In this document: positions 9,712-25,164 of the stretch, piece by piece | Layout: every line of letters starts with the position of its first letter | Numbering within the stretch: the first letter of the stretch is position 1 | From: an uncultured Shimia sp. | GTDB lineage: Bacteria > Pseudomonadota > Alphaproteobacteria > Rhodobacterales > Rhodobacteraceae | Reading direction: 5' to 3' | Assembly (NCBI GenBank): GCA_937897325.1 | Contig: CALCOY010000064.1 | Location: 1-64,000, forward strand | DNA: 64,000 nt | Notes under the pieces: model-generated | What the model was told of the DNA's origin: nothing | Databases searched by the model: none | Seen by the model: only the letters and a program-made list of their open reading frames with translations | Program-made: the position numbers and the translations under genes

Positions 9712-9772
9712 GGTCACTGCTCCTCTATACGGCACGTCGGGCGCGCCCCCTTTGGTTTCTTTGAAAAAAGAA

Positions 9773-10750: not shown

Positions 10751-11985
10751 ATCAGCCCTGTATTGTGGAGAATGGCGGGGATCTGTTTCTTGACCTTGAA
10801 GAACCCGGCCGTGGCATAGGGCCAGATTGCGCTGTCCCAATCTCTGCGCCACTCGATCAGGTCTATTCCCGCTTCATCCAAGCTTCGCTTGGCTTCGAGT
10901 ATCCAATCCCGCAGCGGACCGGTGGGAATGTAGGGCGTTGCTATCTGTGTTGCGCCTAGGCGCGAGGCCCAGCATGATAGATCAGTGGGTACGCCCGCTC
11001 GCAACGCTGTGGCGTCCAGAGCGATCCGCGATGCGGTGTCCCTTAACGCGCCTTGTTCAAATTCCTCGACTAAGGGTGAAACTGGCAGACGCGAGCGCAG
11101 GTGGCTCGCGGAAAGTGTCGCATGTCCGACGAAGTTCAGAGAGGAGAGGTCAAAGTCTTCAGGGCGGCAGTCTTCTTCAGTGATCAGTAAAGCCGTGGGA
11201 CGGTCTGGATTGGGGACCTGCAAAGTACGGAGTGGTGTGACGCTTGGCAGGCCTTCTGGTTCTTCGCTTTCAAGACCTTCGACGACTTCTGCAAGCTCCG
11301 CTGGTCGCGGATCAAAGCGGTTATTGGTGAACTTCGCGATATTCCAGGCTTGTGCATGATAGGGCTTTCCGCGTGTGTGAAGGCCAGCCACCCACCTCCA
11401 TCCCAATGTGTTTGACGCAGGATCGCCGTCGAGGAGATTTCGGAAAAAGAAGTCCGAGCCCAACCGCCAGGGCAATTCGAGCGTGAAGATCCAGATCGAA
11501 GCAAACCACATGCGAGCATGGTTATGAAGGTAACCAGTCTCGACCAATTCTTCGGCCCAACTGTCAAAACAGTCGAGCCCGGTTTTCCCGGCCTCAGCGG
11601 CTGCCACACGGCGGCGAAGGCCACGATCCCGATCCAGAGATGCGAGATCCCTGATCAAGCCCTCTCGGTATTGGTCCCAGACAACCGGTCGCCGTTCCAT
11701 CCATCCTTTAAAGTAGCCACGCCAGATGACCTCTTGAATGAACTTCTCTGCAGCCTCCGCTCCGTGCTCCCGCACCGCGATTGCGACTGCGTCTTGTTCG
11801 AGCACAAGACGCAGTCGCAGGTATGGAGAGAGCATTGACACATCGCGGTGTTGGCCCGGACCGCGATCATAATTGCGGCCGTTGGTATACCTTTTGCCCA
11901 TGCGCGGCGCGAATGCCCGAAGTGCAGCCTCAGCTGCTGCTCGTGTTGGCGCGATCAGCTTTTTGTCTGAATGATCAAGCGGCAT
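10747..11985 (-). CDS. photolyase/cryptochrome-like FAD-binding protein with permuted domain order
   Basis: Protein of 412 residues. About residues 10-255 match the helical FAD-binding domain of photolyases and cryptochromes: MLSPYLRLRLV, FIQEVIWRGYFKGW, GYLHNHARMWFAS, and NTLGWRWVAGLHTRGKPYHA with its Asn and Trp residues. The usual N-terminal antenna domain is absent. Instead residues 265-412 (ALLITEEDCRPEDF, then IPTGPLRDWILEAKRSLDEAGI and TAGFFKVKKQIPAIL) look like the alpha/beta photolyase domain placed at the C-terminus. The start at 11985 has AGGAGG nine bases upstream; an ATG at 12003 lies before it. The gene leads the leftward operon and is divergent from the hypothetical/FolB-like series. 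Repair or signalling activity cannot be told from sequence. Confidence 0.85.
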   Translation of the reverse strand: MPLDHSDKKLIAPTRAAAEAALRAFAPRMGKRYTNGRNYDRGPGQHRDVSMLSPYLRLRLVLEQDAVAIAVREHGAEAAEKFIQEVIWRGYFKGWMERRPVVWDQYREGLIRDLASLDRDRGLRRRVAAAEAGKTGLDCFDSWAEELVETGYLHNHARMWFASIWIFTLELPWRLGSDFFFRNLLDGDPASNTLGWRWVAGLHTRGKPYHAQAWNIAKFTNNRFDPRPAELAEVVEGLESEEPEGLPSVTPLRTLQVPNPDRPTALLITEEDCRPEDFDLSSLNFVGHATLSASHLRSRLPVSPLVEEFEQGALRDTASRIALDATALRAGVPTDLSCWASRLGATQIATPYIPTGPLRDWILEAKRSLDEAGIDLIEWRRDWDSAIWPYATAGFFKVKKQIPAILHNTGLM

Positions 11986-12163
11986 AGCCTTTTGCCTCCT
12001 CATAGATGTCTTTAAGTAAGCTGAAATGCCGAACTGTCGAATTGGAGGGCGGTGGATTGAGCGATGCTCAGGCGTTCACAATACTCTTTTAAGGATTGAG
12101 CTTACAACGCGATGTCCTAGCTCACTGCCAACGAGCAAAAAAACGAGTGACGGGTCATCTGGC

Positions 12164-12496
12164 TTGAAAACAGATACGGTAAACACGCGCAATTTGGTCG
12201 ACGCCTACCTGCATCTGACGAAAGAAGTCCTTCCGTCTTTGGCGCGGAGTGGCGGAAAGGCTTGGCCGGTGCGCGAGGACCATTGCTTTCAGCGGATCGT
12301 TTTGGACACCATTTGTGGTGGCGTTTGGTACGCGCATCTTGATCGTCCTGCCTACAAGAATCTGACGCACGACCAAGCGCAACGCGCGGTTGCTCTTTGT
12401 CGCGAGATTGCTGCAGGGCGTGCTGACCTCCGCCAGTTGAATAACCAATCACTGATCTGGCGTGGCAAACGGCGCGAAGGTGTGAACAGCGTTTGA
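12164..12496 (+). CDS. conserved hypothetical protein of the photolyase cluster
   Basis: Small protein of about 110 residues (NLVDAYLHLTKEVLPSLA; WPVREDHCFQRIVLDTICGGVWY; YKNLTHDQAQRAVALCREIAAG). I recall similar Rhodobacteraceae proteins loosely labelled as acetyltransferases, but no acetyltransferase motif is visible and function is unknown. The start is uncertain: TTG at 12164 fits where the conserved-looking sequence begins, while the frame is open from 12026. It is the first rightward gene opposite the photolyase-like gene, with the next start 12 bases after its stop. Confidence 0.6.
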   Translation: MKTDTVNTRNLVDAYLHLTKEVLPSLARSGGKAWPVREDHCFQRIVLDTICGGVWYAHLDRPAYKNLTHDQAQRAVALCREIAAGRADLRQLNNQSLIWRGKRREGVNSV

Positions 12497-12508
12497 GGAG
12501 TGGTTGAG

Positions 12509-12706
12509 ATGCCTAAGCGAACGTCGCTGCACGATGCAAAGTGGGTTGAGACCGCAAACGATCTCGACGACGTGGTTCAGGACAAGCGAGAAGGCTGGCG
12601 TGCCACGGCTGCAAAAGCCCGCCGCCGTCAGCGCCGATACACGAAACGCATGACCAATGAGATCGCGCGCCTGGCTCAAGACGGCGCGGACGAAGCTGAC
12701 GAATAA
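12509..12706 (+). CDS. small basic/acidic hypothetical protein
   Basis: Protein of 65 residues with a charged middle (REGWRATAAKARRRQRRYTKRMTNEIARLAQ), probably one long helix, and an acidic end. The start at 12509 has GGAG nine bases upstream; the GTG at 12500 is an alternative. It sits between the conserved hypothetical and the FolB-like gene with tight spacing, so it is probably part of the same transcript. Not recognised. Confidence 0.6.
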   Translation: MPKRTSLHDAKWVETANDLDDVVQDKREGWRATAAKARRRQRRYTKRMTNEIARLAQDGADEADE

Positions 12707-12730
12707 TTGTGCAAGGGTGACTGCAAAAAC

Positions 12731-13126
12731 ATGAAGAGCACAATCGAACTCAAGAATCTGGAGCTTGAGCCGTCTCTAGGAACATATGGTCCCGGCGATG
12801 TGGTTCCTGACGTTCACCTCCTTGATCTCAAGCTGACAGTCGATCCGAAGTTGGTTCTCATTGATACCGATGGCATGGACCGGGTGTTTGATTACGATCC
12901 GCTGATTGCGGAGATCGATCGTCTCGCAAACGACGGGCATTATCACACGCAAGAGCGGCTGATGACGCGAATTGTTGCGGCCTGCGCGGCATATGCAGCG
13001 ATCGACGCGGTCGATATCTGCCTCAGTAAGCGCCCGGTCCTGCGGGACAGTGGCGAACTCGGGGTCCGATTGACTGTTGAGAGCGAAGGGCTTGCAGCAG
13101 TTCGTTCAACGTTTCCCGCGAGCTGA
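12731..13126 (+). CDS. dihydroneopterin aldolase-like protein (FolB family)
   Basis: Protein of 131 residues. The pattern is that of the FolB/FolX tunnelling fold: an early strand with GTYGPGDVVPDVHLLDLKLTVD, a YHTQERLMTRIVAACAAY helix where FolB has TVEALA-type sequence, and a conserved Lys in VDICLSKRPVL. FolB cleaves dihydroneopterin to hydroxymethyl-dihydropterin; this divergent copy may act on another pterin. The ATG at 12731 is preferred over an in-frame TTG at 12707. Its place opposite a photolyase-like gene suggests, as inference, pterin supply or modification for a chromophore. A truncated paralogue lies at 4790. Confidence 0.78.
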   Translation: MKSTIELKNLELEPSLGTYGPGDVVPDVHLLDLKLTVDPKLVLIDTDGMDRVFDYDPLIAEIDRLANDGHYHTQERLMTRIVAACAAYAAIDAVDICLSKRPVLRDSGELGVRLTVESEGLAAVRSTFPAS

Positions 13127-13148
13127 AGCCAACCAAAAGGCAAAACCA

Positions 13149-14042
13149 GTGGAAGTGCGACCCTTCGTCGTGAACTCTCGATTTCTCGGCGTTCACTCTA
13201 GCTCGCAAGATATGGCTTTCGGTCGCAACACTCCTTTCGACAGGCTTCTGGCACTGGTCCTTGGGCTTCTCAGGATGCCGCCTGGGCGGCGGCGCATCAG
13301 CATCGCCTTTGCGTATGGCCTCATGTGCCATGTCGTATTCGCGTTGGCTGTTGGGGCGATGATTTTGGCCATGTTCTTTGGGATGAGTGAAAGCCTTGGG
13401 CGCGTCCCGGAACCCTGGTCTTATCTGGCAAACGGATTCTTGGTCCTTCAGTTCCCCTTGATGCACTCGCTTTTGCTCAGCGCACGCGGCAGCAAACTAC
13501 TGAATTGGTTTGCACCGGCAGACTACGCACGAACCCTGAGCACGACGACGTACGCGATGATCGCCTCCCTCCAGCTTCTGATGCTGTTTGCGTTGTGGAC
13601 CCCGAGCGGTGTGGTTTGGTGGCGCGCAGAAGGCGCAGGTTTCTATGTCATTTGCGCACTCTATGCAGCGTCGTGGCTCCTGCTCATCAAGGCGAGCTAT
13701 GATGCCGGGGCAGAGGTGCAGTCGGGCGCACTTGGCTGGATGTCACTGGCTCAAGGTAAGAAGCCAGTCTTCCCGGGTATGCCGACAACGGGACTATTCC
13801 GAGTTATCCGGCAACCGATCTACGTCTCCTTTGCCCTGACACTATGGACCGTCCCCGTTTGGACGCCTGATCAGTTGGCGCTTGCGGTGACGTTGACCGC
13901 CTATTGCCTCCTTGCCCCCAGGCTCAAGGAAAACCGCTTCGAAAAAAGATATGGGGCGCAGTTTCGAGCGTATCAGAGTCAGGTTCCTTACGCCGTGCCG
14001 TATCTGAAAGGATCAAGAAAACATGACCAGCATTCCTCGTAA
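13149..14042 (+). CDS. isoprenylcysteine methyltransferase/NnrU-like integral membrane protein
   Basis: Membrane protein of about 297 residues with five or six helices. The C-terminal segment (RVIRQPIYVSFALTLWTVPVWTPDQL, then ENRFEKRYGAQFRAYQSQVPYAVPYL) is the signature region of ICMT/PEMT/NnrU-like S-adenosylmethionine-dependent membrane methyltransferases. The GTG at 13149 is supported by AAAGG about eight bases upstream; ATG at 13212 is an alternative, and the frame is open into the FolB-like gene. Its end overlaps the next gene by 20 bases. The substrate is unknown; a hydrophobic thiol or quinol-type molecule is conceivable. Confidence 0.75.
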   Translation: MEVRPFVVNSRFLGVHSSSQDMAFGRNTPFDRLLALVLGLLRMPPGRRRISIAFAYGLMCHVVFALAVGAMILAMFFGMSESLGRVPEPWSYLANGFLVLQFPLMHSLLLSARGSKLLNWFAPADYARTLSTTTYAMIASLQLLMLFALWTPSGVVWWRAEGAGFYVICALYAASWLLLIKASYDAGAEVQSGALGWMSLAQGKKPVFPGMPTTGLFRVIRQPIYVSFALTLWTVPVWTPDQLALAVTLTAYCLLAPRLKENRFEKRYGAQFRAYQSQVPYAVPYLKGSRKHDQHSS

Positions 14043-14742
14043 TGATCTCTCCATCTATGACCGTGTCGCCGATCAATGGTGGTCAGATGAGGTGCGCTGG
14101 GTCCGTACTCTCAAAAACCTCGTGCCTGGCCGCCTTGCTTGGTTCGGCCGCCACGTTGATTGGACGGACAAAGACGTTCTCGATCTCGGATGCGCCGGAG
14201 GTTTCATGGCCGAAGCATTGGTCACAAAGGGAGCGCGGGTGACAGGCATTGACCCTGCTGAAGATGCCATCGAAGCTGCACGAAGCCGGGCAACCCTGGT
14301 TGGTCAAGAGATACAATATGACGTTGGTGTTGGTGAGGCGCTCCCGTATGAAGACGCGGCTTTCGATGCGGTCGTCTGTGTCGATGTCTTAGAGCACGTC
14401 AGTGATTTAACGCAGGTGGCCGCGGAGGTTGCTCGCGTGTTGCGTCCTGGCGGTATGTTTCTGTACGACACGATCAACAGAAACCCGGTGTCCAGGCTGG
14501 CAACCATTACTGTCGCTGAAAACATCCTTGGTCTTCTGCCAAAAGGGACACACGATCCCGAGCTCTTCATCAAGCCGAAGGAGTTGGTGCGCGAACTCAC
14601 GGACGCCAGTCTTGTTGCTGGACCTCAGACCGGACTTGGCCCGCGCGGCATCAATCGAAAAGGCGACTTTGTCTTTGGGCCGCTCCCCCTCAAGTCTCTC
14701 ATCTACATGGGAATAGCGAAGAAACCGGAGGGTCCGAAATGA
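14023..14742 (+). CDS. UbiG-like class I SAM methyltransferase
   Basis: Soluble methyltransferase of 239 residues. Motif I is VLDLGCAGGFMAEALVTKGARVTGID. The middle and C-terminus (VLRPGGMFLYDTINRN; LLPKGTHDPELFIKPKEL) are characteristic of UbiG, the ubiquinone 3-O-methyltransferase family. Because it sits in a non-ubiquinone operon with FolB-like and membrane methyltransferase genes it is probably a paralogue acting on another phenol or quinone-like substrate, although a housekeeping ubiG role cannot be excluded. It overlaps both neighbours (20 bases upstream, ATGA downstream). Confidence 0.85.
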   Translation: MTSIPRNDLSIYDRVADQWWSDEVRWVRTLKNLVPGRLAWFGRHVDWTDKDVLDLGCAGGFMAEALVTKGARVTGIDPAEDAIEAARSRATLVGQEIQYDVGVGEALPYEDAAFDAVVCVDVLEHVSDLTQVAAEVARVLRPGGMFLYDTINRNPVSRLATITVAENILGLLPKGTHDPELFIKPKELVRELTDASLVAGPQTGLGPRGINRKGDFVFGPLPLKSLIYMGIAKKPEGPK

Positions 14743-15137
14743 CTGAGGTTGCGCTTCTGACGACAGCCCTCCTGTTCGGAGGAATGGTATTATACTCTTT
14801 CGGGTTTGCCGCATTTGTGTTCAACGCATTGCCTGCCGAAACAGCCGGGCCACTCATCCGACGTGCTTTCCCACACTTCTATTTGTTTGTGTTGGGCACC
14901 TCAGCACCGGCAGCTGCGGTAGTCGCTTTTTCCGACGATTGGATCTCGGCGAGCCTGCTCGCAGTCATTGCGCTAACCACCGTGTATGCAAGGCAAGTCC
15001 TTATGCCCGCAATAAACGCGGCTACTGACACAAAAAGGAAGGGCCGCTTCAAGGCCCTCCACGGTCTTTCTGTGCTCATCACACTGGCCCACATCGGTGC
15101 AGCTGGCGCGGTCATTGTTCGTTTGGCGAATACCTAA
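14739..15137 (+). CDS. DUF4149-like membrane protein
   Basis: Membrane protein of 132 residues with four predicted helices (LLTTALLFGGMVLYSFGFAAFVF; FYLFVLGTSAPAAAVVAF; SLLAVIALTTVYA; LITLAHIGAAGAVIV). The arrangement, including the FFPxFY-like RAFPHFY and the loop with RQVLMPAINAATD, matches DUF4149. Its start overlaps the UbiG-like stop as ATGA, which indicates coupling. It converges on and overlaps the LOV gene by four bases. Function unknown. Confidence 0.78.
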   Translation: MTEVALLTTALLFGGMVLYSFGFAAFVFNALPAETAGPLIRRAFPHFYLFVLGTSAPAAAVVAFSDDWISASLLAVIALTTVYARQVLMPAINAATDTKRKGRFKALHGLSVLITLAHIGAAGAVIVRLANT

Positions 15138-15526
15138 ACCGGGTTCTGTGCCCCAGCAAAGAACATAAGCCGGCCTGACGGGTCGTAGATCGGCCGGATG
15201 CGGAGTCTGTTCACGAAAGCCGTGCCGTCTTTGCGGTAGTTCAGAATGTCGATCGTGAAGCGGGTCTCTGCCTTCAACCCTTGACGGATGGCTTCAATGG
15301 CATGTGGGTTGGTTCCAGGCCCCTGTAGAAAGCGGCAATTCTGTCCGATTGCTTCTTCCGGCGCGTAACCAGTTTGTGTCTCGAATTCGTCGCTGACATA
15401 GATCATCGGGTTGTCAGGCTGAAACGGGTCCGAAAACACAACACTCATTTCTCTTTCATCGGCTTCCAGCAGGGCGCGTAGTTCTGCCTGACTTAGGGTG
15501 CTTTGGCCAAGTAAGTCGGTAGTCAT
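15134..15526 (-). CDS. short LOV-domain blue-light photoreceptor
   Basis: Protein of 130 residues consisting almost only of one LOV (PAS) domain. The flavin-binding motif GQNCRFLQG is intact at residues 61-69, with the adduct-forming Cys64. NYRKDGTAFVNRLRIRPIYD follows as in functional LOV domains. There is no effector domain, as in the short LOV proteins known from Rhodobacteraceae such as DsLOV and RsLOV. A near-perfect AAGGAGGT lies about nine bases before the start, so strong translation is expected. It is 56 bases downstream of the HAD-like gene in the same direction and converges on the FolB/UbiG-like series. Confidence 0.92.
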   Translation of the reverse strand: MTTDLLGQSTLSQAELRALLEADEREMSVVFSDPFQPDNPMIYVSDEFETQTGYAPEEAIGQNCRFLQGPGTNPHAIEAIRQGLKAETRFTIDILNYRKDGTAFVNRLRIRPIYDPSGRLMFFAGAQNPV

Positions 15527-15582
15527 TATTCGAAGACCTCCTTCGCAGGATTTGTGAGCTGCACAAATACCATTGCTCGATC

Positions 15583-16251
15583 CTATGCCGCTGCTCGGCT
15601 CGGAAATTTGAGGAAACGGCCCACGTTCAAGGTAGACTGAACAGCCACGACGTCTAAGAAGTTGGAGACGTCGTGGAAGCTTCCGGGGACCGCTAAGCAG
15701 TTGGTTCCACTCCCAATAGCCGCTAGCGCCCCATCCGGATTGTCTTCGACTGACAGCACATGGTGAGCTGGGACTTTCAGCTGATCAAGAGCGTAAAGAT
15801 ATGCGTCAGGATGGGGCTTGGGGCGGGCGACAAGACCGCTATGCACGACCAATTCGAAAACGTCCTCTGGAATTCCGAGCTTCTCAAGCAACTGTCTCAC
15901 GTTGTCTTGGCTCGTTGAAGTGACAAGAGCCAGCTTGCCGTCGTTAGACTTCACATACTCGATTGCTTCAATGACACCAGGTCGAGGCTCTACGATCCTA
16001 GAACGTAAAAGGTTGCGGTAGATTTCAGACTTCAGCCGATGGAGTTCGGCCGCATCGACCAGATCTCCCCTCACTTTAGCATAGTATAACACACGATCGT
16101 ACCCGCCAGCACTTAGGAGCATTCGCTTATAGTCGCAAACAGACCACCGCCAATCCAAAGCCGACTGGGCGAACGCCTCGTTATAGGCTTCGAGTTGAAG
16201 ACTTGACGTCTCTGCCAGAGTACCGATGGAACCGAAAAAGAGTGTATGCAT
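15583..16251 (-). CDS. HAD-superfamily-like protein lacking the catalytic aspartates
   Basis: Protein of 222 residues with the overall sequence of a subfamily IA HAD phosphatase (CbbY/Gph-like): cap region, VEPRPGVIEAIEYV, LVTSTS (motif II), the motif III Lys in ARPKPHPDAYLYALDQL, and VSVEDN-like LSVEDNPDGALAA (motif IV). Motif I, normally DxDGTL, reads FFGSIGTLAETS here. Both aspartates, including the nucleophile, are replaced by Gly and Ile. It should therefore be unable to form the phospho-aspartate and may be a binding or regulatory protein. It precedes the LOV gene by 56 bases in the same direction. Confidence 0.85.
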   Translation of the reverse strand: MHTLFFGSIGTLAETSSLQLEAYNEAFAQSALDWRWSVCDYKRMLLSAGGYDRVLYYAKVRGDLVDAAELHRLKSEIYRNLLRSRIVEPRPGVIEAIEYVKSNDGKLALVTSTSQDNVRQLLEKLGIPEDVFELVVHSGLVARPKPHPDAYLYALDQLKVPAHHVLSVEDNPDGALAAIGSGTNCLAVPGSFHDVSNFLDVVAVQSTLNVGRFLKFPSRAAA

Positions 16252-16554
16252 GCCAACCCGCCTATTGTGTGCTGTGGGCAGATGGATCGGCCAAGGTAAA
16301 AGTCAACGACGGTTCAGTTGGTGATCCGCTCTATGCTGGTGGGTTTGAGCAAAGGATGCCGGCTTGAACTCGGTGGGTCACCGCGGCTTGCAATTTGTGA
16401 TCGCACCAAATGCCCCATCGGACGGGCTGCGCCGTAGCATCGACACCCATACGCAAAGGGCCGCTGCGGGCCGATTACGCCGCCTGATTAGCTAAACGAC
16501 CGGAAAGTATGCTGCATAATCCGGTTTCCGGTCGGCTCAACAGCACTGTTAAAA
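16252..16554. other. gene-poor interval
   Basis: No gene is seen. The sequence carries GC-rich words such as GGGCCGCTGCGGGCCG around 16460 that resemble other non-coding stretches of this window. It holds the 5' region of the HAD-like gene and the 3' end of the rhomboid gene. No convincing terminator was found. Confidence 0.45.
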
Positions 16555-17205
16555 CTATAGCTCAGGCCATGACCGATGAGGCAAGTATGGGCGATGCCAT
16601 GTTATGAAGCCGCATAGTGTACCGGCGAGAAACCCGCCTACATGCGCCTCCCAAGCAATATTGCCAGGACTGGCGAGCGTCAGCGCCACGTTGATCGCCA
16701 GAAAAGCGAGCCCATTTTGGACAACCGGCATCAGGCTGTCGCGGCGCGCACATCGGTCGAGGATCTCCCACAGCGCCACGGTTCCCAAGAAGCCGAAGAG
16801 CACGCCGGAGGCCCCAACGGACGGTGTGCCGGAACTGGCGAGCGCCGCAAACAAACCGCCAGCCCCCAGCGCCGACAATCCTGCAATCGGCCAGAATGCC
16901 GCCTTTCCAACTCGATCAACGATGATAGGCCCCAACCACAACAGGCCCACCATGTTCATGAAGAGGTGCAACGGCCCCCCGTGCAGGAAGGCCGTGGTGC
17001 CAAACATGAAAACGGGTTGGCCCGCAAAAGCCGGGGTGGCCCCTTTCAAAAGGTCCGGCCAGAAGCCTCCAACGGCAACGAGAAAGCCGCGCATGCTGGC
17101 ACCATATCCGGCCAGCATGCCAGCCAGCGCGACAATCTCGAAAAACACGCACGCGAAGAGGAACAGCTTCACCGGTTGTGGTTGTAGAGCCCATGGAACA
17201 GGCAC
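16555..17205 (-). CDS. rhomboid-family intramembrane serine protease
   Basis: Six-helix membrane protein of 216 residues that should cleave membrane-embedded substrates. All catalytic signatures are present: His80 and Asn84 in GGPLHLFMNMVG, the nucleophile Ser133 in GASGVLFG, and His188 in WEAHVGGFLAG, giving the Ser/His dyad and oxyanion residues. The start is GTG at 17205 with GGGGTGA just upstream. It lies 25 bases downstream of the DoxX gene in the same direction, so the two are probably co-transcribed. The physiological substrate is unknown. Confidence 0.9.
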   Translation of the reverse strand: MPVPWALQPQPVKLFLFACVFFEIVALAGMLAGYGASMRGFLVAVGGFWPDLLKGATPAFAGQPVFMFGTTAFLHGGPLHLFMNMVGLLWLGPIIVDRVGKAAFWPIAGLSALGAGGLFAALASSGTPSVGASGVLFGFLGTVALWEILDRCARRDSLMPVVQNGLAFLAINVALTLASPGNIAWEAHVGGFLAGTLCGFITWHRPYLPHRSWPEL

Positions 17206-17230: not shown

Positions 17231-17746
17231 TCAGCCGTACGCTGCTGCGGGACGGCTACCATAATTGTTGCCGCGCAACAGGAAAAAGGCCGACAAACCC
17301 AGTGCCATCACTTGCAGGTCGGCGATGGTCAACGCGCCCCAGTAGAAAAACGCGATGACGCCCAGGACCGCGGCAACACCTGCAAACCCGCCACCGCGTG
17401 TCAGCACGTCACCGATCAAGCGCAGCTCGCCAAGCGCGGGTCGCCACGTCTCAAAAATGCCGCCGAGGATCAGGGCAACAGCGCCCAGAACTTCTGCGAA
17501 GGCAGCCAGGATGTAGAGCACCGCGGGAACACCATAATCACCCGGTGCAACCAGTGCGCCAGGGAATTTCTGCAGACCGTAGTACATCAGCAAACCGGCC
17601 AGCGGAATGCGGATGGCCCAGTGTGCGAAACGGTCGGACCAGGAGAATCCGGGCACATACCCGGTCGATGTCGCCCGGTTGAACATCGCACGGGCCGTGT
17701 CGCGCAAGCGCGCGGTATTCTGCGAGTAATCGATATCCGTCGGCAT
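17231..17746 (-). CDS. DoxX-family membrane protein
   Basis: Membrane protein of 171 residues with four predicted helices. The DoxX pattern is visible: RIPLAGLLMYYGLQKFPGALVAPGDYGVP, then AAFAEVLGAVALILGG, a polar loop, and two further helices. The start at 17746 has AAAGGA about six bases upstream; the longer open frame lacks this. It is divergent from the pseudoazurin gene and upstream of rhomboid. DoxX proteins are linked to quinol oxidation and redox stress; the specific role here is unknown. A related tandem DoxX-like protein lies at 19010. Confidence 0.82.
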   Translation of the reverse strand: MPTDIDYSQNTARLRDTARAMFNRATSTGYVPGFSWSDRFAHWAIRIPLAGLLMYYGLQKFPGALVAPGDYGVPAVLYILAAFAEVLGAVALILGGIFETWRPALGELRLIGDVLTRGGGFAGVAAVLGVIAFFYWGALTIADLQVMALGLSAFFLLRGNNYGSRPAAAYG

Positions 17747-18079
17747 TGAGTATCCTTTCGTATCGTCTTTCATCTCCGGCGCGCTGACATGTGCGAGCAT
17801 GACGTCGCGCCGTGGAGGTTGGCTAGTTAGCGAGGTGTTCGAGAAAGCAAGGTCGGAAGCGCGACCAAACGACGCGAATGGTGCCGCACCTCACGCTGTC
17901 GTGAACGTTTGTGAGGACCGGCCTGAACGTGGGCTCAGGCCATAGTCTCACGCGCGCGACATGAACTTGCGTCCCGCCAGCGGATGGCTGCGTCAGACCG
18001 TCGCCATCGCACAAACAACGGCAGAATTCGCGCCATCGCGCCATAGGTGCTGGCCCACACGAAAGGAAAGGAAAGTCAC
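17747..18079. promoter_or_regulatory. divergent intergenic region between DoxX and pseudoazurin genes
   Basis: These 333 bases must hold the promoters for both the leftward DoxX-rhomboid pair and the rightward pseudoazurin operon. I looked for an FNR/NnrR box of the TTGAT-N4-ATCAA type, as expected for denitrification-linked pseudoazurin, and did not see one. No coding sequence is supported. Confidence 0.45.
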
Positions 18080-18556
18080 ATGAAACGCTTTGCAACAGCT
18101 GCACTTCTGCTGACGGCGTCGATCTCTCCGGCCTTTGCAGAGACCATCGAGGTCGAGATGCTCAACAAGAACGATGCGGGTGACCGTATGGTCTTCAGCC
18201 AGGAGCTGATCCGCGCAGAAGTCGGTGACGTGATCCGCTTTGTGCCCACCGACAAGGCGCACAATGCGCAATCCGTCAAAAATGCTTTACCCGCCGGGCA
18301 GGAGCCGTTCCGCGGCAAGATGAACCAAGCCGTGGAGTACGTCGTCACGGAAACGGGACTGACGGCGGTCATCTGCGCCCCGCACCAATCCATGGGAATG
18401 GTGGCGCTTGTGGTGGTCGGTGACGACCTCAGCAATGCGGAGCAAATCCTGGACGCGCGTATCCCGGGCAAGGGTGGCAAGAAGATCGCGGACCTTGTCG
18501 AAGAGGCACGGTCCACCATCGCAGCTGAAACCGTAGAACCGACCGGCAACAGCTGA
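18080..18556 (+). CDS. pseudoazurin (type 1 copper protein)
   Basis: Periplasmic electron carrier of 158 residues. The signal peptide is residues 1-20 (MKRFATAALLLTASISPAFA). The type 1 copper ligands are all present: His61 in DKAHNAQ, and Cys99, His102 and Met107 in ICAPHQSMGM, with the same spacing as classical pseudoazurin. It normally donates electrons to nitrite reductase or other periplasmic oxidases. The start has AGGAAAG directly upstream. A tail of about 20 residues after the usual end is rich in Glu and Thr. It leads a rightward operon of small membrane proteins; no nir genes are in the window. Confidence 0.92.
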   Translation: MKRFATAALLLTASISPAFAETIEVEMLNKNDAGDRMVFSQELIRAEVGDVIRFVPTDKAHNAQSVKNALPAGQEPFRGKMNQAVEYVVTETGLTAVICAPHQSMGMVALVVVGDDLSNAEQILDARIPGKGGKKIADLVEEARSTIAAETVEPTGNS

Positions 18557-18646
18557 TCAACGGTGCGCCAAGGGCAGCGGGTCCATGATCCGCTGTCCTA
18601 AGCGCCCCGACCGATCCAAAACCCAGTTGAAAACGAAAGCAACACC

Positions 18647-18796
18647 ATGCTTGAGACACTCATACTTGTTGCACTTGGCCTGACCGCCGTGGTGGTCGCC
18701 GTCACTCTGCGCGCCGACCGCGCGCGGCGCAGTTCCCAGCGCGTCGCCATTCCGGTGACGTCCGAGCGGCGCGACAAGCGCCGTACGCCGCGGTGA
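18647..18796 (+). CDS. 49-residue single-pass membrane protein
   Basis: Tiny protein with one N-terminal helix (LETLILVALGLTAVVVAVTL) followed by a strongly basic cytoplasmic tail (RADRARRSSQRV; ERRDKRRTPR). It is encoded 90 bases after pseudoazurin and overlaps the next small gene by GTGA. The clean membrane-helix plus positive-inside tail and the coupled overlap argue that it is real. Not a recognised family; it may be a membrane subunit or stabiliser linked to the operon's redox function. Confidence 0.6.
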   Translation: MLETLILVALGLTAVVVAVTLRADRARRSSQRVAIPVTSERRDKRRTPR

Positions 18797-18921
18797 CCAA
18801 ACCCAAACCGCCGTCCACGTTCCGCCGCAAGGCCGTCCGTGCCGTGGCCATCGCATTCATTGCGCCCGTCATCGCGGGAAGTGTCGCAGGCATTGCCCTT
18901 GCGGCGGTGCTGAACCTCTAG
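18793..18921 (+). CDS. 42-residue single-pass membrane protein
   Basis: Starts with GTG overlapping the stop of the previous mini gene (GTGA), so it is probably translationally coupled. The product has a basic N-terminus (TKPKPPSTFRRKAVR) and one helix (AVAIAFIAPVIAGSVAGIALAAVL). Together with its neighbour it forms a pair of mini membrane proteins with opposite placement of the basic segment. Too short for any family assignment. Confidence 0.55.
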   Translation: MTKPKPPSTFRRKAVRAVAIAFIAPVIAGSVAGIALAAVLNL

Positions 18922-19009
18922 GTTCGTCGCACCGCTCAACCAGCCTATCTGATGCAACCTGGCGTGCGCGCGATTGCGACCGGTCCGCCTGTGAAAGAAC
19001 GGTACCCAC

Positions 19010-20059
19010 ATGACCCATTCCAGCTTCAAACCGCGCTTCCGCCTGTGGCTCTTGGCTTTGCTGTCTCTGGCCGTCGGCATGCTGGTGACCACCGACGCGG
19101 CGGCCCATGTGCGCTGGTTTGTCGATGCCTACGCCACGGTTGAAACCTTTGAACCCTACAGCCTGACGGATACTGCGGTGCTTGTCTGGATCGCCGTCGC
19201 GCTTCTGCTGGTCGGAGCCTCGGTCGCGCTCGACATGCGCCTGCCGAATGTGCGCATCGTCGACACCAAGACGCGGCACGATTTTATCGAACTTCTGCGC
19301 GTGTTCACCGGCATGTCCATGCTGTTGACCGCGTATGAGGGTGCGGTTGTGGCTCCTCATCTGATTGCATTCGGTCCGTTCGGCACCCTGCTGCTCTTTG
19401 CGCAGGCGGGCATCGGGATCTTGCTCATCGCGAACCGTTTCGTGCGCCACGCGGCGATCCTGATGGTCCTGTTGCATCTGGGTCTTGCGATCAAGTTCGG
19501 GCTACTGGCGGCCTTCGAATATTTGATCATGGTGGCCATTGCGGTCTTTTTGCTGATCAACAACCTACCGACGGTCGCGCTGCGGGAGCGGTTCAAACCC
19601 TATTCCGTCGACCTGCTGCGGATCCTGACCGGGATCTCGCTCATCACGCTCGGCTTTTCTGAAAAGCTGTTGGGCGCGATGATGGCCGAAAGCTTTCTTG
19701 CGCAATACCAGTGGAACTTCATGAACGAGCTGGGGTTTGAATTCTTCACCGACCGCCTCTTTGCGCTGTCGGCCGGTGTGATCGAGGTCGTATTTGGCGT
19801 GATCCTTGTCCTTGGCACCACAACCCGGCTCAATGTTCTGGCGTTCTCCGTCGTTCTGTTTGCGTCCAACGTGCTGTTCCTGATCCAGGGCGAGAACGAA
19901 GCGGCGATGGTCGAGTTCATCGGCCACATGCCCGTGATCGGCGTTGCCCTTATCCTGCTACTGCTCGGGGCGGGTCAGCGGCTGAAGGTCACGAACGTCC
20001 TGCCGCAACGCCGCATCAACACCGCCACCACAACCGTGCGGGTACCTGCCGATGTCTGA
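19010..20059 (+). CDS. polytopic membrane protein with two DoxX-like repeats
   Basis: Membrane protein of 349 residues with about nine helices. An N-terminal signal-like helix is followed by two similar four-helix units. The first begins ELLRVFTGMSMLLTAYEG and ends RFVRHAAILMVLLHLGLA. The second begins DLLRILTGISLITLGFSEKLL and ends TTRLNVLAFSVVLFASNVLF. Both resemble the DoxX pattern (LxR--G at the start, a TR/R-A segment in helix 3-4), so this looks like an internal duplication of a DoxX unit. It lies between the mini membrane proteins and the His-rich protein, overlapping the latter by eight bases. Exact reaction unknown. Confidence 0.7.
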   Translation: MTHSSFKPRFRLWLLALLSLAVGMLVTTDAAAHVRWFVDAYATVETFEPYSLTDTAVLVWIAVALLLVGASVALDMRLPNVRIVDTKTRHDFIELLRVFTGMSMLLTAYEGAVVAPHLIAFGPFGTLLLFAQAGIGILLIANRFVRHAAILMVLLHLGLAIKFGLLAAFEYLIMVAIAVFLLINNLPTVALRERFKPYSVDLLRILTGISLITLGFSEKLLGAMMAESFLAQYQWNFMNELGFEFFTDRLFALSAGVIEVVFGVILVLGTTTRLNVLAFSVVLFASNVLFLIQGENEAAMVEFIGHMPVIGVALILLLLGAGQRLKVTNVLPQRRINTATTTVRVPADV

Positions 20060-20552
20060 TATTTCACTCCGATTGCCCTACCTGATCTACCTCAGCATCG
20101 GGTCGCTGTTGCTGGGCGTTTTGGTGGCACCCGCCTTTCGCGACATGCCGCCTGAAGAGGCACCTGTGGCGCAGGGTGCGGCGGCGCATGACGCGATGCA
20201 CGGGTCGATCGAGGTATCTCCCGTCGGGGCACCGGAGGTCGCGATGGATATCACCAAGGACCCCACGGGCGGGTGGAACATCACCCTGCGGACCGGGAAT
20301 TTCGCCTTCACGCCCGCGGCGGTGAACCAAGCACACACGCCCAACACCGGCCACGCGCATCTCTATGTCGATGGGGTCAAGATGGCGCGCCTTTATGGGC
20401 CCCATTTCCACATGCCGGACCTCGCACCGGGCCAGCACGAGGTCACCGTCGCGCTCAGCAGCAATGACCATGCACTCTACATGGTCGACGGCGTCCGCAT
20501 CGAAGCCCGGGCCATCGTGATGCAGGGCGACGTGCCTGTGTCCGGCAGTTGA
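20052..20552 (+). CDS. membrane-anchored His-rich periplasmic protein
   Basis: Protein of 166 residues with one N-terminal helix (LIYLSIGSLLLGVLVAPAF) and an extracytoplasmic domain rich in His: AHDAMHGS, NQAHTPNTGHAHLYVDG, YGPHFHMP, GQHEVTV and NDHALYMVDG. The beta-strand-like repeats around VDGVKMARLYG and VDGVRIEARAIV suggest a cupredoxin- or Ig-like fold. The histidines and methionines, and its location in a pseudoazurin operon, suggest copper binding, which is inference. It overlaps the preceding gene by eight bases. Confidence 0.6.
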   Translation: MSDISLRLPYLIYLSIGSLLLGVLVAPAFRDMPPEEAPVAQGAAAHDAMHGSIEVSPVGAPEVAMDITKDPTGGWNITLRTGNFAFTPAAVNQAHTPNTGHAHLYVDGVKMARLYGPHFHMPDLAPGQHEVTVALSSNDHALYMVDGVRIEARAIVMQGDVPVSGS

Positions 20553-20582
20553 ACGGATGCCTCGAAAATCCTGGAGAATACC

Positions 20583-21224
20583 TTGGACAAGCTCATCTTG
20601 ATCATCGGTGCCACGTCGGGCATTGGAAAACTTTGCATGGAAACGGCGCTGAACCGCGGTCTTACCGTGCGTGCGTTTGCACGATCTGCCGACACACTTG
20701 CAGAGCACCCCGAGCTGGAGCTCATGGCGGGGGACGCGCTGAACGCGGACGACATTGCCAAGGCGCTTGACGGTGTGCGGGCCGTTGTAGTCGCCTTGGG
20801 CATTCGCGAACGCGTGGCCATGCTGTGGGATGAGAAAACGCTCTTTTCGCGCAGCACCGAAATTCTGCTGGCCGAGATGCAAAAAACGGATGTGTCACGA
20901 CTGCTCGTCGTTACGGGTTTCGGCGCGGGTCGCAGCCGGTCGGCCATGAGTTTGCTGGAACGGCTGGGTCACAATGCGGTTCTCGGACGAGTTTACGCCG
21001 ACAAGAAGCGGCAAGAAGCTATGATCATGGCGAGCCCCCTCGACTGGACCATTGTCCGCCCTGTGATCCTCACCAACCGCCCCGCCTCAGGCAAGCTGAA
21101 GGTGCTCGAAGACCCATCGTCGTGGCGCAACGGGCTTGTCGCGCGGGCCGATGTTGCCGCCTATCTTGTCGACGCAGCGGAGCAGAACCTGCATGTGCAA
21201 AAGGATGTTGTGCTGACCCGTTGA
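20583..21224 (+). CDS. NAD(P)H-binding protein (NmrA/SDR-a-like)
   Basis: Protein of 213 residues with an N-terminal Rossmann fold (LILIIGATSGIGKLCMETAL). It continues with the pattern of NAD(P)H-binding atypical SDRs (VRAFARSADTL; DALNADDIAKALDGVRAVVVALG; VSRLLVVTGFGAG; LDWTIVRPVIL). The start codon is TTG at 20583 with GGAG seven bases upstream. It is the last gene of the pseudoazurin operon, 30 bases after the His-rich gene. The substrate is unknown; it may be a quinone or nicotinamide-dependent reductase. Confidence 0.8.
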   Translation: MDKLILIIGATSGIGKLCMETALNRGLTVRAFARSADTLAEHPELELMAGDALNADDIAKALDGVRAVVVALGIRERVAMLWDEKTLFSRSTEILLAEMQKTDVSRLLVVTGFGAGRSRSAMSLLERLGHNAVLGRVYADKKRQEAMIMASPLDWTIVRPVILTNRPASGKLKVLEDPSSWRNGLVARADVAAYLVDAAEQNLHVQKDVVLTR

Positions 21225-21562: not shown

Positions 21563-21590
21563 GGTCACGTCCGTCAAGGTGGTGTAATTT
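21563..21590 (+). repeat. IS256 terminal inverted repeat, left
   Basis: The inner 14 bases AGGTGGTGTAATTT and an outer GTCCG match the right end in inverted orientation; over 28 positions 21 are identical. The first six terminal bases differ. Confidence 0.8.
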
Positions 21591-21612
21591 GTTGGGTGGC
21601 CTGAGGTCATGA

Positions 21613-22795
21613 TCAGGCGGCCTTTATGCTGAGAATTGGGTCTGTCTCCTCGTGGTCGATCTGGGCGAAGGCGTCGACCATCATGTAGCGGCTTGCGGTT
21701 TGCCATTCGTCATTCTGCTCGAAGAGCACGGCGCCGATGAGCCGGATGATGGACGCCTCGTTGGGGAAGATCCCGACGACATCCGCGCGGCGTTTCACTT
21801 CCTTGTTCAAGCGCTCGATTGGGTTGGTGCTGTGAAGCTTGGTGCGATGCTGGCGGGGGAATGCCATGTATGCGAGAACATCGTGTTCGCTGCTGTCCAT
21901 GAGGTCTGCCAGCTTGGGCCACCTGGGTCGGAGTTGGTCTGCGACTTTGCGCCAGGTCTCGCCTGCCGATGCACGGTCGGGCTGGTCGAAAGCCTGACGG
22001 ATCGCAGCTGCCACGACGGTGTGCTGGCCGCGTGACACATGCGCCAGAGCGTTGCGCATCCAATGGACGCGGCAGCGCTGCCAAGTCGCTTCAAACACGC
22101 GCTCAATTGCGGCTCTGAGGCCGCTGTGTGCGTCGCTGATCACCAGCTTTGTACCCTCCAGCCCACGGGAAATCCATCCAGAATGTCTCCGCCTCAGAGG
22201 GCCCCAGACCCAACCCTATGATCTCCCTGCGCCCATCGGTGTTGGCTGCGACAGCAATTATGGCCGCGACGCTGACGATGCGCCCGCCCTGGCGTACTTT
22301 CAGGTAGGTGGCGTCGAGCCAGACGTATGGCCATTCACCAGTCAGAGGGCGGGTGAGAAACTCATTCTCCCGCTCGTCGATGTCCTTGCAGAGCTTCGAC
22401 ACCGTGCTCTTGGAGATACCCGACAGCCCCATGGCTTGCGCCAGTTCATCGACACGCCGGGTCGAGACGCCGCCGATCCACGCTTCCTGGATCACGGCCA
22501 CAAGGGCTTTCTCCGAGGTTTTGCGCGGCTCCAGGAAGCCTGGGAAGTAGCTGCCCTGGCGCAGCTTCGGCACCTTGAGGTTTAAAGTGCCCAAACGGGT
22601 ATCGAGAGCGCGCTCTCGATACCCGTTCCTCCAGGTCGTGCGCTGATCAGCCCGCTCGTGTTTGCTTGCACCGATCAAGCCTTCAACGTCAGCTTCCATG
22701 ATCAGCTGAAGCACGGCCTCGGCGACAGCTCTGAGAAAGTCGCCGCCGTCCTGCTTGGCCAGAAGTTCGGATAGGTCCATGGTTGGTTTGGTCAT
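21613..22795 (-). pseudogene. IS256-family transposase (mutator type), frameshifted
   Basis: Two overlapping frames together encode a near-complete Mutator/IS256 transposase. The N-terminal part starts at 22795 (GGAGA upstream) and contains the first catalytic Asp in YVWLDATYLKV. The C-terminal part contains the second Asp in VISDAHSG and the catalytic Glu in STNPIERLNKEVK. Between FWMDF and RGLEGTKLVISD, near 22160-22170, about 17 bases are missing compared with the usual spacing, which shifts the frame. All DDE residues survive but on separate frames, so no full-length transposase is made. Confidence 0.88.
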
Positions 22796-22888
22796 CGGGG
22801 TCTCCGTATGGGTCGTGGTTGAAGCGTCGAAACTCCACCCAACCATACACCTCGGTGGCCACCCGGGATTACACCGTCGAAGGCGCAG

Positions 22889-22916
22889 AAATTACACCAC
22901 CTGCGCGGACACTAAC
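22889..22916 (-). repeat. IS256 terminal inverted repeat, right
   Basis: Inverted partner of 21563-21590. The core AAATTACACCACCT on the + strand is the exact complement of the left end's inner 14 bases. Confidence 0.8.
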
Positions 22917-23022: not shown

Positions 23023-25164
23023 GTGAATAATCCAATTATGGACCTTTCTTCTTTGCCGCTTACCCGCGATCTGGTCCTTGTCGGCGGCGGTCACACTCAT
23101 GCGCTTTTGCTCAGGGCTTGGGCGATGAACCGGTTACCCGGTGCGCGACTGACCGTCATCAATCCCGAGCCCACTGCCGCGTATTCCGGCATGTTACCGG
23201 GCCATGTGGCAGGCCATTACGCGCGTGCGGACCTCGATATTGATCTGGTGCGTCTTGCCCAGTTTGCCGGTGCGCGGCTCATCTTGGGGCGGGCTGAGGC
23301 GATCGACCGAAACCAAAAGCGGATCACCGTGTCAGGCGCGCCTGATGTTGCGTTCGACATTCTGTCACTCGATGTCGGCGTCACCAGCGTCATGTCCGAT
23401 CTGCCAGGATTTGAGGCGCATGGCCATCCAGCCAAACCGCTGGGACCTTTTGCGCAGGCGTGGCAGAGCTACCTGGATGGCACGCCAGGGCTGGGTGTGG
23501 CCGTGCTTGGCGGCGGAATTGCAGGCGTTGAACTCGCCCTTGCCATGCGCCATCGGTTGCGGTCGCTGAGCCGTGACGTGCCCGTGACCATCATCGAGAA
23601 AAACCTTGCGCTGTCGACGCTTGGCGCATCGGCGCGGCGCTCCTTGTTGAGGGCTATGAAGAATGAAGGTGTAATTCTGCGCGAAGGCACAACCGTTACC
23701 CGGGTGAGCGACAGCGGAGTGCACTTGGATTGCGGCGACACCATCGCTTCCGATTTCGTTGTTGGGGCGGCTGGTGCCGCGCCACATCCGTGGCTGAAAG
23801 ACACGGACCTTACCGACCAGGATGGCTTTGTCCCCGTGAACGCGCGCCTGCAAACCATGGATCCATCCATTTTTGCGGTGGGCGACTGCGCTCATCTCAG
23901 CGAAACCCCCCGGCCCAAAGCCGGCGTGTATGCCGTGCGACAGGCGCCCGTTCTCCTCCACAACCTGCGCGCGGCCCTTTCCGGCAGCGGCGGCTTGAAG
24001 CGGTATCGCGCCCAGAAAGACTATCTCAAGCTTGTCTCTCTCGGCAGGCGCTCTGCACGAGCCGAGCGGTTCGGGATCTTCGTTGCGGGTCCTCTTCTGT
24101 GGCAGTTGAAAGATCGCATCGATCGAAAGTTCATGGACAAGCTGAACAGGCTGCCCTTGCCTGCGCATCCTGTCCGGCCCTGGCCGCGGGCTGCTGGCGA
24201 TCGTGAAGCGGCGGGCGCGTCCGAGCGATGTGGTGGCTGTGGCGCAAAACTGGGTTCCGAGGCCTTGCGCGATGGTTTGGCGAGTGACGCGCTCGGCGAT
24301 GATGCCGCGATACTCAATTTTGGCGGCCAGACGCAGGTGATGAGTACGGATCACCTGCGGGGCTTCATGACCGACCCCGTCACGATGACCCGCATTGCGG
24401 CGGTGCACGCCTTGGGCGACATCTGGGCGATGGGCGGACAGCCCCAAGCCGCAACCGCGACGATCATCTTGCCGCATCAAAGCGACGCGCTGGCCGCACG
24501 GCACTTACGCGAAATCATGCAGGTCGCCCGGGATGTCATGACACGCGCAGGGGCCGAGGTCGTGGGAGGGCACAGCACATTGGGCGCCGAGTTGACGATT
24601 GGCTTTACCGTCACTGGCATGTGTGACCGCGCGCCGATCACGCTGGCGGGTGCCCAACCGGGTGACCGGCTGATCTTGACCAAGCCCATTGGCACGGGCG
24701 TGATCATGGCCGCGCATATGCGGTGGCGTGCGCAAGCGGCGCATGTCATCGGAGCCGTTCGTGAAATGGTGCGCCCCCAGCACGAAGCGGCGCAAATCCT
24801 TGAAAACGCGCATGCAATGACGGACGTCACCGGATTTGGTCTTGCAGGTCACCTGCGCGCAATCTGCGAGGCGTCCGATGTCGGTGCCCGACTGAACCTA
24901 GGGCAAGTGCCCATTTTGTCGGGGGCGGAGACGCATGCAAATGCGGGTGTCCGCTCCAGTCTATTCCGAGAGAACTCCGCAGGCTTTGGTGAACCCGCTA
25001 CACCGCGTGCGGGTCTCATGTTTGACCCGCAGACAAGCGGCGGTTTGCTGGCCTGTGTCTCTGGGGGTGCCGAGGCGATCTGCGACCGGCTACAAGCCGC
25101 CGGGTTCACCGCCGCCATCATCGGCGAGATCACCGACCGGAGTGGTCAAATCGAAATGCTTTGA
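23023..25164 (+). CDS. selD: NADH-dehydrogenase-like/selenide water dikinase fusion (SelD)
   Basis: Fusion protein of 713 residues. Residues about 10-385 form a pyridine nucleotide-disulphide oxidoreductase of the NDH-2 type (LVLVGGGHTHALLL; VAVLGGGIAGVELALAM; IFAVGDCAHL). Residues about 400-713 are selenide, water dikinase, which makes selenophosphate from selenide and ATP. The SelD active site is CGGCGAKLG with Cys406 and Lys409 equivalent to the essential Cys17 and Lys20 of E. coli SelD; the second cysteine of that motif is Ala here. HALGDIWAMGG and DPQTSGGLL are further SelD motifs. GTG at 23023 is used; ATG at 23038 is possible. It converges on mnmH, its probable consumer. Confidence 0.92.
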   Translation: MNNPIMDLSSLPLTRDLVLVGGGHTHALLLRAWAMNRLPGARLTVINPEPTAAYSGMLPGHVAGHYARADLDIDLVRLAQFAGARLILGRAEAIDRNQKRITVSGAPDVAFDILSLDVGVTSVMSDLPGFEAHGHPAKPLGPFAQAWQSYLDGTPGLGVAVLGGGIAGVELALAMRHRLRSLSRDVPVTIIEKNLALSTLGASARRSLLRAMKNEGVILREGTTVTRVSDSGVHLDCGDTIASDFVVGAAGAAPHPWLKDTDLTDQDGFVPVNARLQTMDPSIFAVGDCAHLSETPRPKAGVYAVRQAPVLLHNLRAALSGSGGLKRYRAQKDYLKLVSLGRRSARAERFGIFVAGPLLWQLKDRIDRKFMDKLNRLPLPAHPVRPWPRAAGDREAAGASERCGGCGAKLGSEALRDGLASDALGDDAAILNFGGQTQVMSTDHLRGFMTDPVTMTRIAAVHALGDIWAMGGQPQAATATIILPHQSDALAARHLREIMQVARDVMTRAGAEVVGGHSTLGAELTIGFTVTGMCDRAPITLAGAQPGDRLILTKPIGTGVIMAAHMRWRAQAAHVIGAVREMVRPQHEAAQILENAHAMTDVTGFGLAGHLRAICEASDVGARLNLGQVPILSGAETHANAGVRSSLFRENSAGFGEPATPRAGLMFDPQTSGGLLACVSGGAEAICDRLQAAGFTAAIIGEITDRSGQIEML

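Follow-up and report, generated by a model that had tools for sequence, protein, structure and literature searches.

What does a type 1 copper protein do next to a membrane protein that looks like two fused DoxX units? The question is raised by a run of six genes at 18080–21224 on the plus strand of the window, by which we mean the whole 64,000-nucleotide stretch analyzed here (positions 1–64000 of contig C64, CALCOY010000064.1, in the 5.36 Mb genome of an uncultured Shimia sp.). The six encode a pseudoazurin-like copper protein, two single-pass mini proteins (mini49 and mini42), a tandem DoxX membrane protein (tDoxX), a membrane-anchored His/Met-rich protein (HisP), and an NAD(P)-binding protein. 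The original prediction, made from the letters alone, was that together they could form a quinol- or copper-dependent electron-transfer complex distinct from denitrification. Our comparisons support a smaller recurrent core, tDoxX and HisP, sometimes joined by the NAD(P)-binding gene; pseudoazurin is best read as an occasional neighbor that usually lies outside this set.

The core emerges from a wider scan for tDoxX, which returned 50 loci: 33 close ones, with a best-segment identity of 52% or more, and 17 that are remote or partial. Because some of these stop at contig ends (several do, e.g., L079, L071, and L072), the neighbor counts in both groups are minimum counts. A HisP gene follows tDoxX at a distance of no more than 200 bases in 16 of the 33 close loci and in none of the 17 remote loci, and the NAD(P)-binding gene follows tDoxX in seven of the 33, as a variable third member. 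Remote tDoxX–HisP pairs adjoin on contig C97 of the same genome, in genome G497, and on Phaeobacter plasmids. Pseudoazurin sits within 5 kb of tDoxX, about 4 kb away, in two of the 33 close loci, and was not found in the other 31. Among 248 genomes of the family, tDoxX relatives occur in seven (own genome included), pseudoazurin relatives in 61, and single DoxX relatives in 17; no pseudoazurin was found within the 14.7–19.9 kb fetched around tDoxX in the six family relatives. These six recur in the 50-locus scan, and the two sets are not independent. The C97 locus (L051, 952–2468) is a second, remote tDoxX–HisP pair in this genome.

Conservation of the gene order had been set beforehand as a test of the six-gene complex, and no other locus examined showed all six genes in this order, from pseudoazurin through the two mini proteins, tDoxX, and HisP to the NAD(P)-binding protein. 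The complex fails because its order is not conserved, and a conserved six-gene operon is rejected, no pseudoazurin having been found in the sequence fetched around tDoxX in the six family relatives or in 31 of the 33 close loci, some of which stop short. The genes themselves are where the prediction had placed them, in the order it gave, as judged by reading frames, Pfam matches, and a match to the solved pseudoazurin 4bwu; the neighborhood at 13173–15526 is listed in addition:

13173–15526: methyltransferase/DUF4149/LOV-PAS neighborhood, common to pseudoazurin relatives elsewhere (profile matches)
16555–17205, minus strand: rhomboid protease (PF01694, 89.6 bits)
17231–17755, minus strand: single DoxX protein (PF07681, cut-off 23.6; one search gave 23.4 bits and another 25.2 bits, the latter over the cut-off)
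18080–18556, plus strand: pseudoazurin-like type 1 copper protein (PF00127, 51.1 bits against 21.2)
18647–18796, plus strand: mini49, 49-residue single-pass mini protein (reading frame)
18793–18921, plus strand: mini42, 42-residue single-pass mini protein (reading frame), coupled to mini49 by GTGA
19010–20059, plus strand: tDoxX, tandem DoxX membrane protein, 349 residues (PF07681), with a predicted signal peptide and then a predicted mature His33
20052–20552, plus strand: HisP, anchored His/Met-rich, predicted periplasmic Ig-like protein, 166 residues (reading frame, structure model)
20583–21224, plus strand: NAD(P)-binding protein (PF13460, 146 bits)

A single transcript over 18080–21224 is plausible, because the plus-strand genes overlap or are separated by short gaps: mini49 and mini42 overlap by GTGA and tDoxX and HisP by 8 bases, with gaps of 90 bases from pseudoazurin to mini49, 88 from mini42 to tDoxX, and 30 before the NAD(P)-binding gene. 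Promoter and terminator scans were not informative (one promoter found versus 1.2 expected; seven terminators versus 4.8 expected, standard deviation 2.7).

Conserved mini proteins are rejected. Neither has a credible relative in the 149 family genomes searched for each (own genome included); the next-best matches after the window reach E 0.02 for mini49 and E 0.01 for mini42, amid many chance matches up to E 1, and no counterpart is seen by eye upstream of tDoxX in seven close loci. Codon statistics favor coding for mini42, whose score is reached by three of 340 non-coding segments, and are weaker for mini49 (27 of 340).

The tandem DoxX protein

The original observation that this membrane protein looks like two fused DoxX units is supported. 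Its match to the DoxX family (PF07681) is just over the cut-off (23.9–24.1 bits versus 23.6) and confined to the second half, and 42 of 44 aligned tDoxX sequences match DoxX at E ≤ 0.1. When the two halves of the 44-sequence alignment are compared to each other by hhalign, they align over 94 columns with a probability of 84.4% (E 7e-6); the same comparison with 28 close sequences only gives 41.5% over 16 columns. The 44-sequence comparison supports two homologous DoxX-like units in one chain. In addition to its fused units, tDoxX differs from single DoxX proteins in an extra helix and a signal peptide.

The structure model of tDoxX (predicted local distance difference test score [pLDDT] 88.3, predicted template-modeling score [pTM] 0.85) has its best, though weak, resemblance to the transmembrane domain of the vitamin K-dependent gamma-carboxylase GGCX. 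In VIA-align, 13 GGCX entries are matched with Z 8.7–9.8 over 205–227 residues at a root-mean-square deviation (rmsd) of 5.1–5.9, and the 14th entry with Z 5.5. The best of these (Z 9.8, rmsd 5.1, 205 residues) covers most of the protein, although sequence identity is 10%–12% and the match is below the trust level for helical bundles. A single unit of NACHO/TMEM35A is matched with Z 9.6 and rmsd 2.7 over 122 residues, and the next fold family after these two reaches Z 7.3. Sequence searches found no believable relative of tDoxX in PDB.

Which residues might matter can be read from the alignment, with one caution. Its 44 sequences are the window and 43 of the 50 loci, and frames were kept only if they contained AH-x-[RKN]-WF; the search pattern behind the 50-locus scan itself contained the N-terminal motif. 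Fourteen residues are invariant in 44/44 (H33, V34, W36, F37, L211, K219, F229, N236, G256, E259, G263, R273, G305, and H306), and E302 is kept in 43. Because the row filter required them, the invariance of H33, W36, and F37 in this set is not evidence. The histidine is nonetheless kept in all seven loci that the filter dropped, as are E302 and H306 in all six of these in which the gene end is present. In each of the 12 tDoxX sequences found without the motif (the window, the six family relatives, the paralogue L051 of the same genome, L173, L174, L175, and L222), a histidine directly follows a signal-type A/S/V-x-A/S site by eye. The five most remote sequences also show, again by eye, an acidic residue and a histidine late in the chain. 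We predict that the histidine is placed to become the mature N-terminus in most copies. By topology from the model helices, H33, H117, K219, E302, and H306 would lie towards the periplasmic side.

GGCX uses vitamin K hydroquinone, and DoxD has been linked to thiosulfate:quinone oxidoreductase (TQO). On account of these two analogies, quinone binding is our leading guess for tDoxX. By sequence tDoxX is distant from DoxD (PF04173): the window protein has no match at E 0.1, and two of the 44 aligned sequences match, the best at E 0.0082. Histidine-brace copper proteins, among them LPMO, CopC, and PmoB, begin with a histidine in their mature form and hold copper through the N-terminal amine and two His; tDoxX would be like these in its predicted mature N-terminus, in most copies, and is unlike them in being a membrane helical bundle.

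PMC12452194 ties the single DoxX genes of bufferin operons to copper-binding peptide operons and copper stress. tDoxX scores 15.1 of the 80 bits needed for HvfX (NF050144), the bufferin DoxX, and differs from such operons in that no MNIO/DUF2063-like gene was recognized by eye in the adjoining frames. Elsewhere in the same genome (L054, contig C45, 1157–3306), DoxX, DUF2063-like, and DUF692-like genes stand in a row much as in a bufferin operon; this assignment was made by eye, with the DoxX tested by profile.

HisP and its contexts

HisP is, as had been proposed, an anchored His/Met-rich protein, with nine histidines and eight methionines (start included) in 166 residues. Its model (pLDDT 88.5) consists of one N-terminal helix (residues 8–29) and an Ig-like sandwich. 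The fold is a generic Ig/FN3-like one, with Z at most 8.4, and is not informative; no believable sequence relative was found in PDB. Matches to DUF4399 (17.1 bits versus 28) and DUF2846 (17.0 versus 34.3) are both below cut-off, and in the best HisP relative these families reach E 0.00054 and E 3.2e-05, respectively. Five histidines (H50, H101, H103, H120, and H140) are invariant in the 16 aligned tDoxX-linked copies, which are those of the window and 15 of the 16 loci, the broken L095 copy being left out.

The function of HisP is better approached through the company it keeps away from tDoxX. Across the class, 20 of the 385 genomes searched contain HisP; 17 loci were fetched from these 20, leaving out the own genome and two fragments. 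The order CbtB-CbtA-HisP is seen in four of the 17, one of these continuing with DUF1636, CobW, and a CobN-like gene (the last by eye). Fusions of PCuAC and HisP account for three, and in one a CopC/CopD-like protein (by eye) lies 1.1 kb or more away; the rest comprise two remote tDoxX–HisP pairs and seven other or unclear contexts. Among plasmids, 79 records contain HisP, and of the eight annotated regions opened, three have CbtB-CbtA-HisP and one, in Sulfitobacter, has an annotated PCu(A)C protein. HisP itself has no match to the PCu(A)C profile (PF04314), which occurs only as a separate fused domain elsewhere; it is thus found fused to PCu(A)C or beside CbtA/CbtB and matches neither family. 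In the CbtB-CbtA operons of L199, L215, L216, and L220, HisP is a third gene without a name, and in L197, L203, and L204 it is fused to PCuAC as the C-terminal domain.

These contexts in class loci and plasmids are good evidence, of an independent kind, for HisP as a metal domain in the periplasm. Its metal is most likely copper, with cobalt or nickel as alternatives.

Pseudoazurin and the enzyme neighbors

If the recurrent pair is tDoxX–HisP, where does the copper protein belong? Among solved structures it matches pseudoazurin 4bwu best (E 1.4e-29), and its type 1 copper ligands H61, C99, H102, and M107 align to that protein. It belongs to the plastocyanin-azurin family (PF00127) and scores 106.3 bits versus the 109.85 of the pseudoazurin equivalog TIGR02375, hence "pseudoazurin-like"; it resembles pseudoazurin in its ligands and differs in this score and in the lack of a NirK match in its genome. 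A NirK profile search of the genome gave no matches. The cytochrome d1 profile matched twice, each time in part (about 100 of its 368 positions) and once above the family cut-off. A full-length cd1 reductase (NirS) was not found; nitrite reductases other than NirK and cd1 were not searched for. The statement in the prediction that no nitrite reductase is present is borne out to this extent, and a denitrification carrier role for the pseudoazurin is rejected for this genome as far as the NirK and cd1 profiles go. Two more pseudoazurin-like genes occur in this genome (L052 and L053, contigs C24 and C26). By eye, a TonB-receptor-like gene and ABC transporter genes flank one of them, and the other adjoins ABC transporter genes of siderophore type.

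The two loci in which pseudoazurin accompanies tDoxX, in Sulfitobacter sediminilitoris (L074) and Tateyamaria pelophila (L077), start alike with pseudoazurin, a ferritin/Dps-like protein, a response regulator, and two methyltransferase-like genes, and go on to a DUF4149-like gene, a divergent LOV/PAS gene, tDoxX, and the NAD(P)-binding gene. The L077 pseudoazurin is broken into two frames and the L074 LOV/PAS gene is degraded. Pfam matches underlie the L074 ferritin and response regulator and the window methyltransferase, DUF4149, and PAS proteins. In genome G212 (62% complete), a 72% identical pseudoazurin on a 9.5 kb contig with no tDoxX match adjoins look-alikes of the response regulator, methyltransferase, and DUF4149 genes, and a relative of the single DoxX in G207 (59%) adjoins a gene resembling the window methyltransferase-like gene at 13173–14042 (both by eye).

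In the window, SOUL, FAD amine oxidase, and photolyase-like genes (within 9097–15526) precede the PEMT-like methyltransferase (a weak match) and the methyltransferase, DUF4149, and LOV/PAS genes at 13173–15526. This neighborhood (9097–15526) is shared in part with L074, L077, L079, L056, and L148. Since L074, L077, G212, G207, and the window share the surroundings of pseudoazurin or the single DoxX, we assign these two genes to a neighborhood of light- or oxidative-stress type, and take tDoxX–HisP to be a separate module that joins it at times.

The tDoxX genes have other partners elsewhere. Six of the 17 remote loci, all gammaproteobacterial, have tDoxX after genes for a YtkA-like protein and a CCP_MauG di-haem peroxidase, as gene clusters (Pfam was run on three of the six, with YtkA over cut-off in one). 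On Phaeobacter plasmids, the remote tDoxX–HisP pair follows a vanadium-dependent haloperoxidase gene. At least 80% of this trio is held by 58 of 61 matching plasmid records, Phaeobacter inhibens DSM 17395 included; because all or nearly all are of one genus, the 58 count as few independent events, and G075 was not counted apart from the Phaeobacter porticola plasmid, with which it shares nearly the same coordinates. On a P. inhibens plasmid (L222, 2380–5303), the remote tDoxX and HisP that follow the haloperoxidase are both annotated as hypothetical. A haloperoxidase-like stretch (L104, 835–1923; 22% identity, E 2.6e-10) lies about 5 kb from a tDoxX with a CCP_MauG neighbor and is possibly a second link of this kind. 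A class search with a profile that included remote tDoxX found full-length relatives in four of 385 genomes (own included) and partial matches only in 18 others.

Around the operon, three further observations were made. Directly downstream, 21569–22910 contains transposase reading frames (21613–22846, minus strand), of IS256/mutator type by eye, inside 22-nucleotide inverted repeats (86%). A HAD-type hydrolase gene region (15500–16307) has an 83% identical copy on contig C113 of the same genome, and a long frame at 23023–25164 resembles, by eye, an FAD oxidoreductase fused to selenide water dikinase. The PDB sequence relatives of the NAD(P)-binding protein are ChuY/ShuY, biliverdin/flavin reductase.

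Possible roles of the module

From the gene pairing, conserved residues, predicted folds, and associations, we infer a role for quinone, copper, and electron flow: tDoxX–HisP would be a periplasm-facing, quinone-linked, probably copper-handling redox module with variable enzyme partners. We favor this reading tentatively, at somewhat less than an even chance. tDoxX would be an inner-membrane protein in which one additional helix precedes two DoxX-type bundles, most likely binding quinone or quinol at its conserved polar residues on the periplasmic side. HisP would be a membrane-anchored periplasmic domain whose invariant histidines bind a soft metal, most likely copper. Electrons would pass through tDoxX from quinol to a copper site that HisP forms, perhaps jointly with the N-terminal histidine of tDoxX. 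In this way the module would control the redox state of copper or deliver electrons at the periplasmic face, close to enzymes that produce or consume reactive oxygen or halogen species. Pseudoazurin may be an optional soluble acceptor, or simply a neighbor, in this genome. The predicted quinol- or copper-dependent unit distinct from denitrification would thus survive for the tDoxX–HisP pair and not for the six genes. A literature search that covered few subscription papers found none on the tDoxX–HisP pair, none joining pseudoazurin with DoxX, and none joining DoxX with haloperoxidase.

Several observations weigh against this redox reading. No adjacent HisP was found in 17 of the 33 close and all 17 remote tDoxX loci (some of these contigs stop short), which makes HisP a non-obligatory partner of tDoxX; the pseudoazurin link to tDoxX rests on three loci. 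The top fold score of tDoxX (Z 9.8) stays below 13, the level recommended for helical bundles, and Foldseek with the same model gave nothing at E ≤ 0.001, its best match being an unrelated one at E 0.16, with GGCX at E 0.46. Two of the seven dropped loci (L086 and L092) have T and P before the histidine, a poor fit to signal peptidase. Remote HisPs (L051, L222, and the small-genome copies L207–L209) lose some of the five histidines by eye, and the CbtA contexts of HisP point also to cobalt- or nickel-type metals.

The main rival is metal homeostasis without electron transfer, a serious contender that we nevertheless rate as rather unlikely. HisP would be a periplasmic copper, cobalt, or nickel chaperone and tDoxX its membrane receptor or transporter, in the role that CbtA has in CbtB-CbtA-HisP operons. 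The contexts given above speak for it: CbtB-CbtA beside HisP in four of the 17 class loci and three of the eight plasmid regions, PCuAC fused to HisP in three of the 17, the annotated PCu(A)C protein in Sulfitobacter, and the CopC/CopD-like protein (by eye) 1.1 kb or more away in one of the 17. It sits less easily with tDoxX, which shows no sign of a transport path by the tests at hand and whose remote relatives adjoin peroxidase genes without HisP; moreover, DoxX relatives are usually redox-linked.

Rather than feed respiration, the module may protect the envelope from oxidative stress (peroxide, singlet oxygen, or hypohalous acid), by analogy with the DoxX-containing complex that serves envelope oxidative-stress protection in mycobacteria. 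The haloperoxidase and di-haem peroxidase partners of tDoxX agree with this, as do the LOV, photolyase-like, SOUL, Dps-like ferritin, FAD amine oxidase, and response regulator genes near it in the window or in L074 and L077. We find the proposal doubtful, since such neighbors are confined to few loci (the window, L074, L077, and L079) and none is a proven stress gene here. Improbable, finally, is the view that there is no complex and that mobile elements brought single genes together, with tDoxX–HisP alone functional: the unrepeated gene order, the transposase with inverted repeats directly downstream, and the orphan mini proteins agree with it, and the overlapping or close spacing on one strand throughout 18080–21224 and the proximity of pseudoazurin and tDoxX also in L074 and L077 argue against it.

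A bolder form of the redox reading is a long shot. tDoxX would itself be a membrane-embedded copper protein, in which the N-terminal histidine exposed by signal peptidase, H306/E302, and HisP form a quinol-driven, oxygen- or peroxide-active copper site. If so, tDoxX would represent a novel type of copper redox enzyme linked to quinol, one that provides or scavenges H2O2 beside periplasmic peroxidases, MauG-type in Gammaproteobacteria and vanadium haloperoxidase in Phaeobacter.

DoxX proteins are widespread and poorly understood. For the variant described here, a specific partner on the periplasmic side, residues that may act as ligands, and enzyme neighbors that recur can be named, including the haloperoxidase operon of Phaeobacter inhibens DSM 17395. 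The molecules that bind to DoxX folds, and the choice between electrons and metals as what these folds move, thus become accessible to tests in a laboratory strain.

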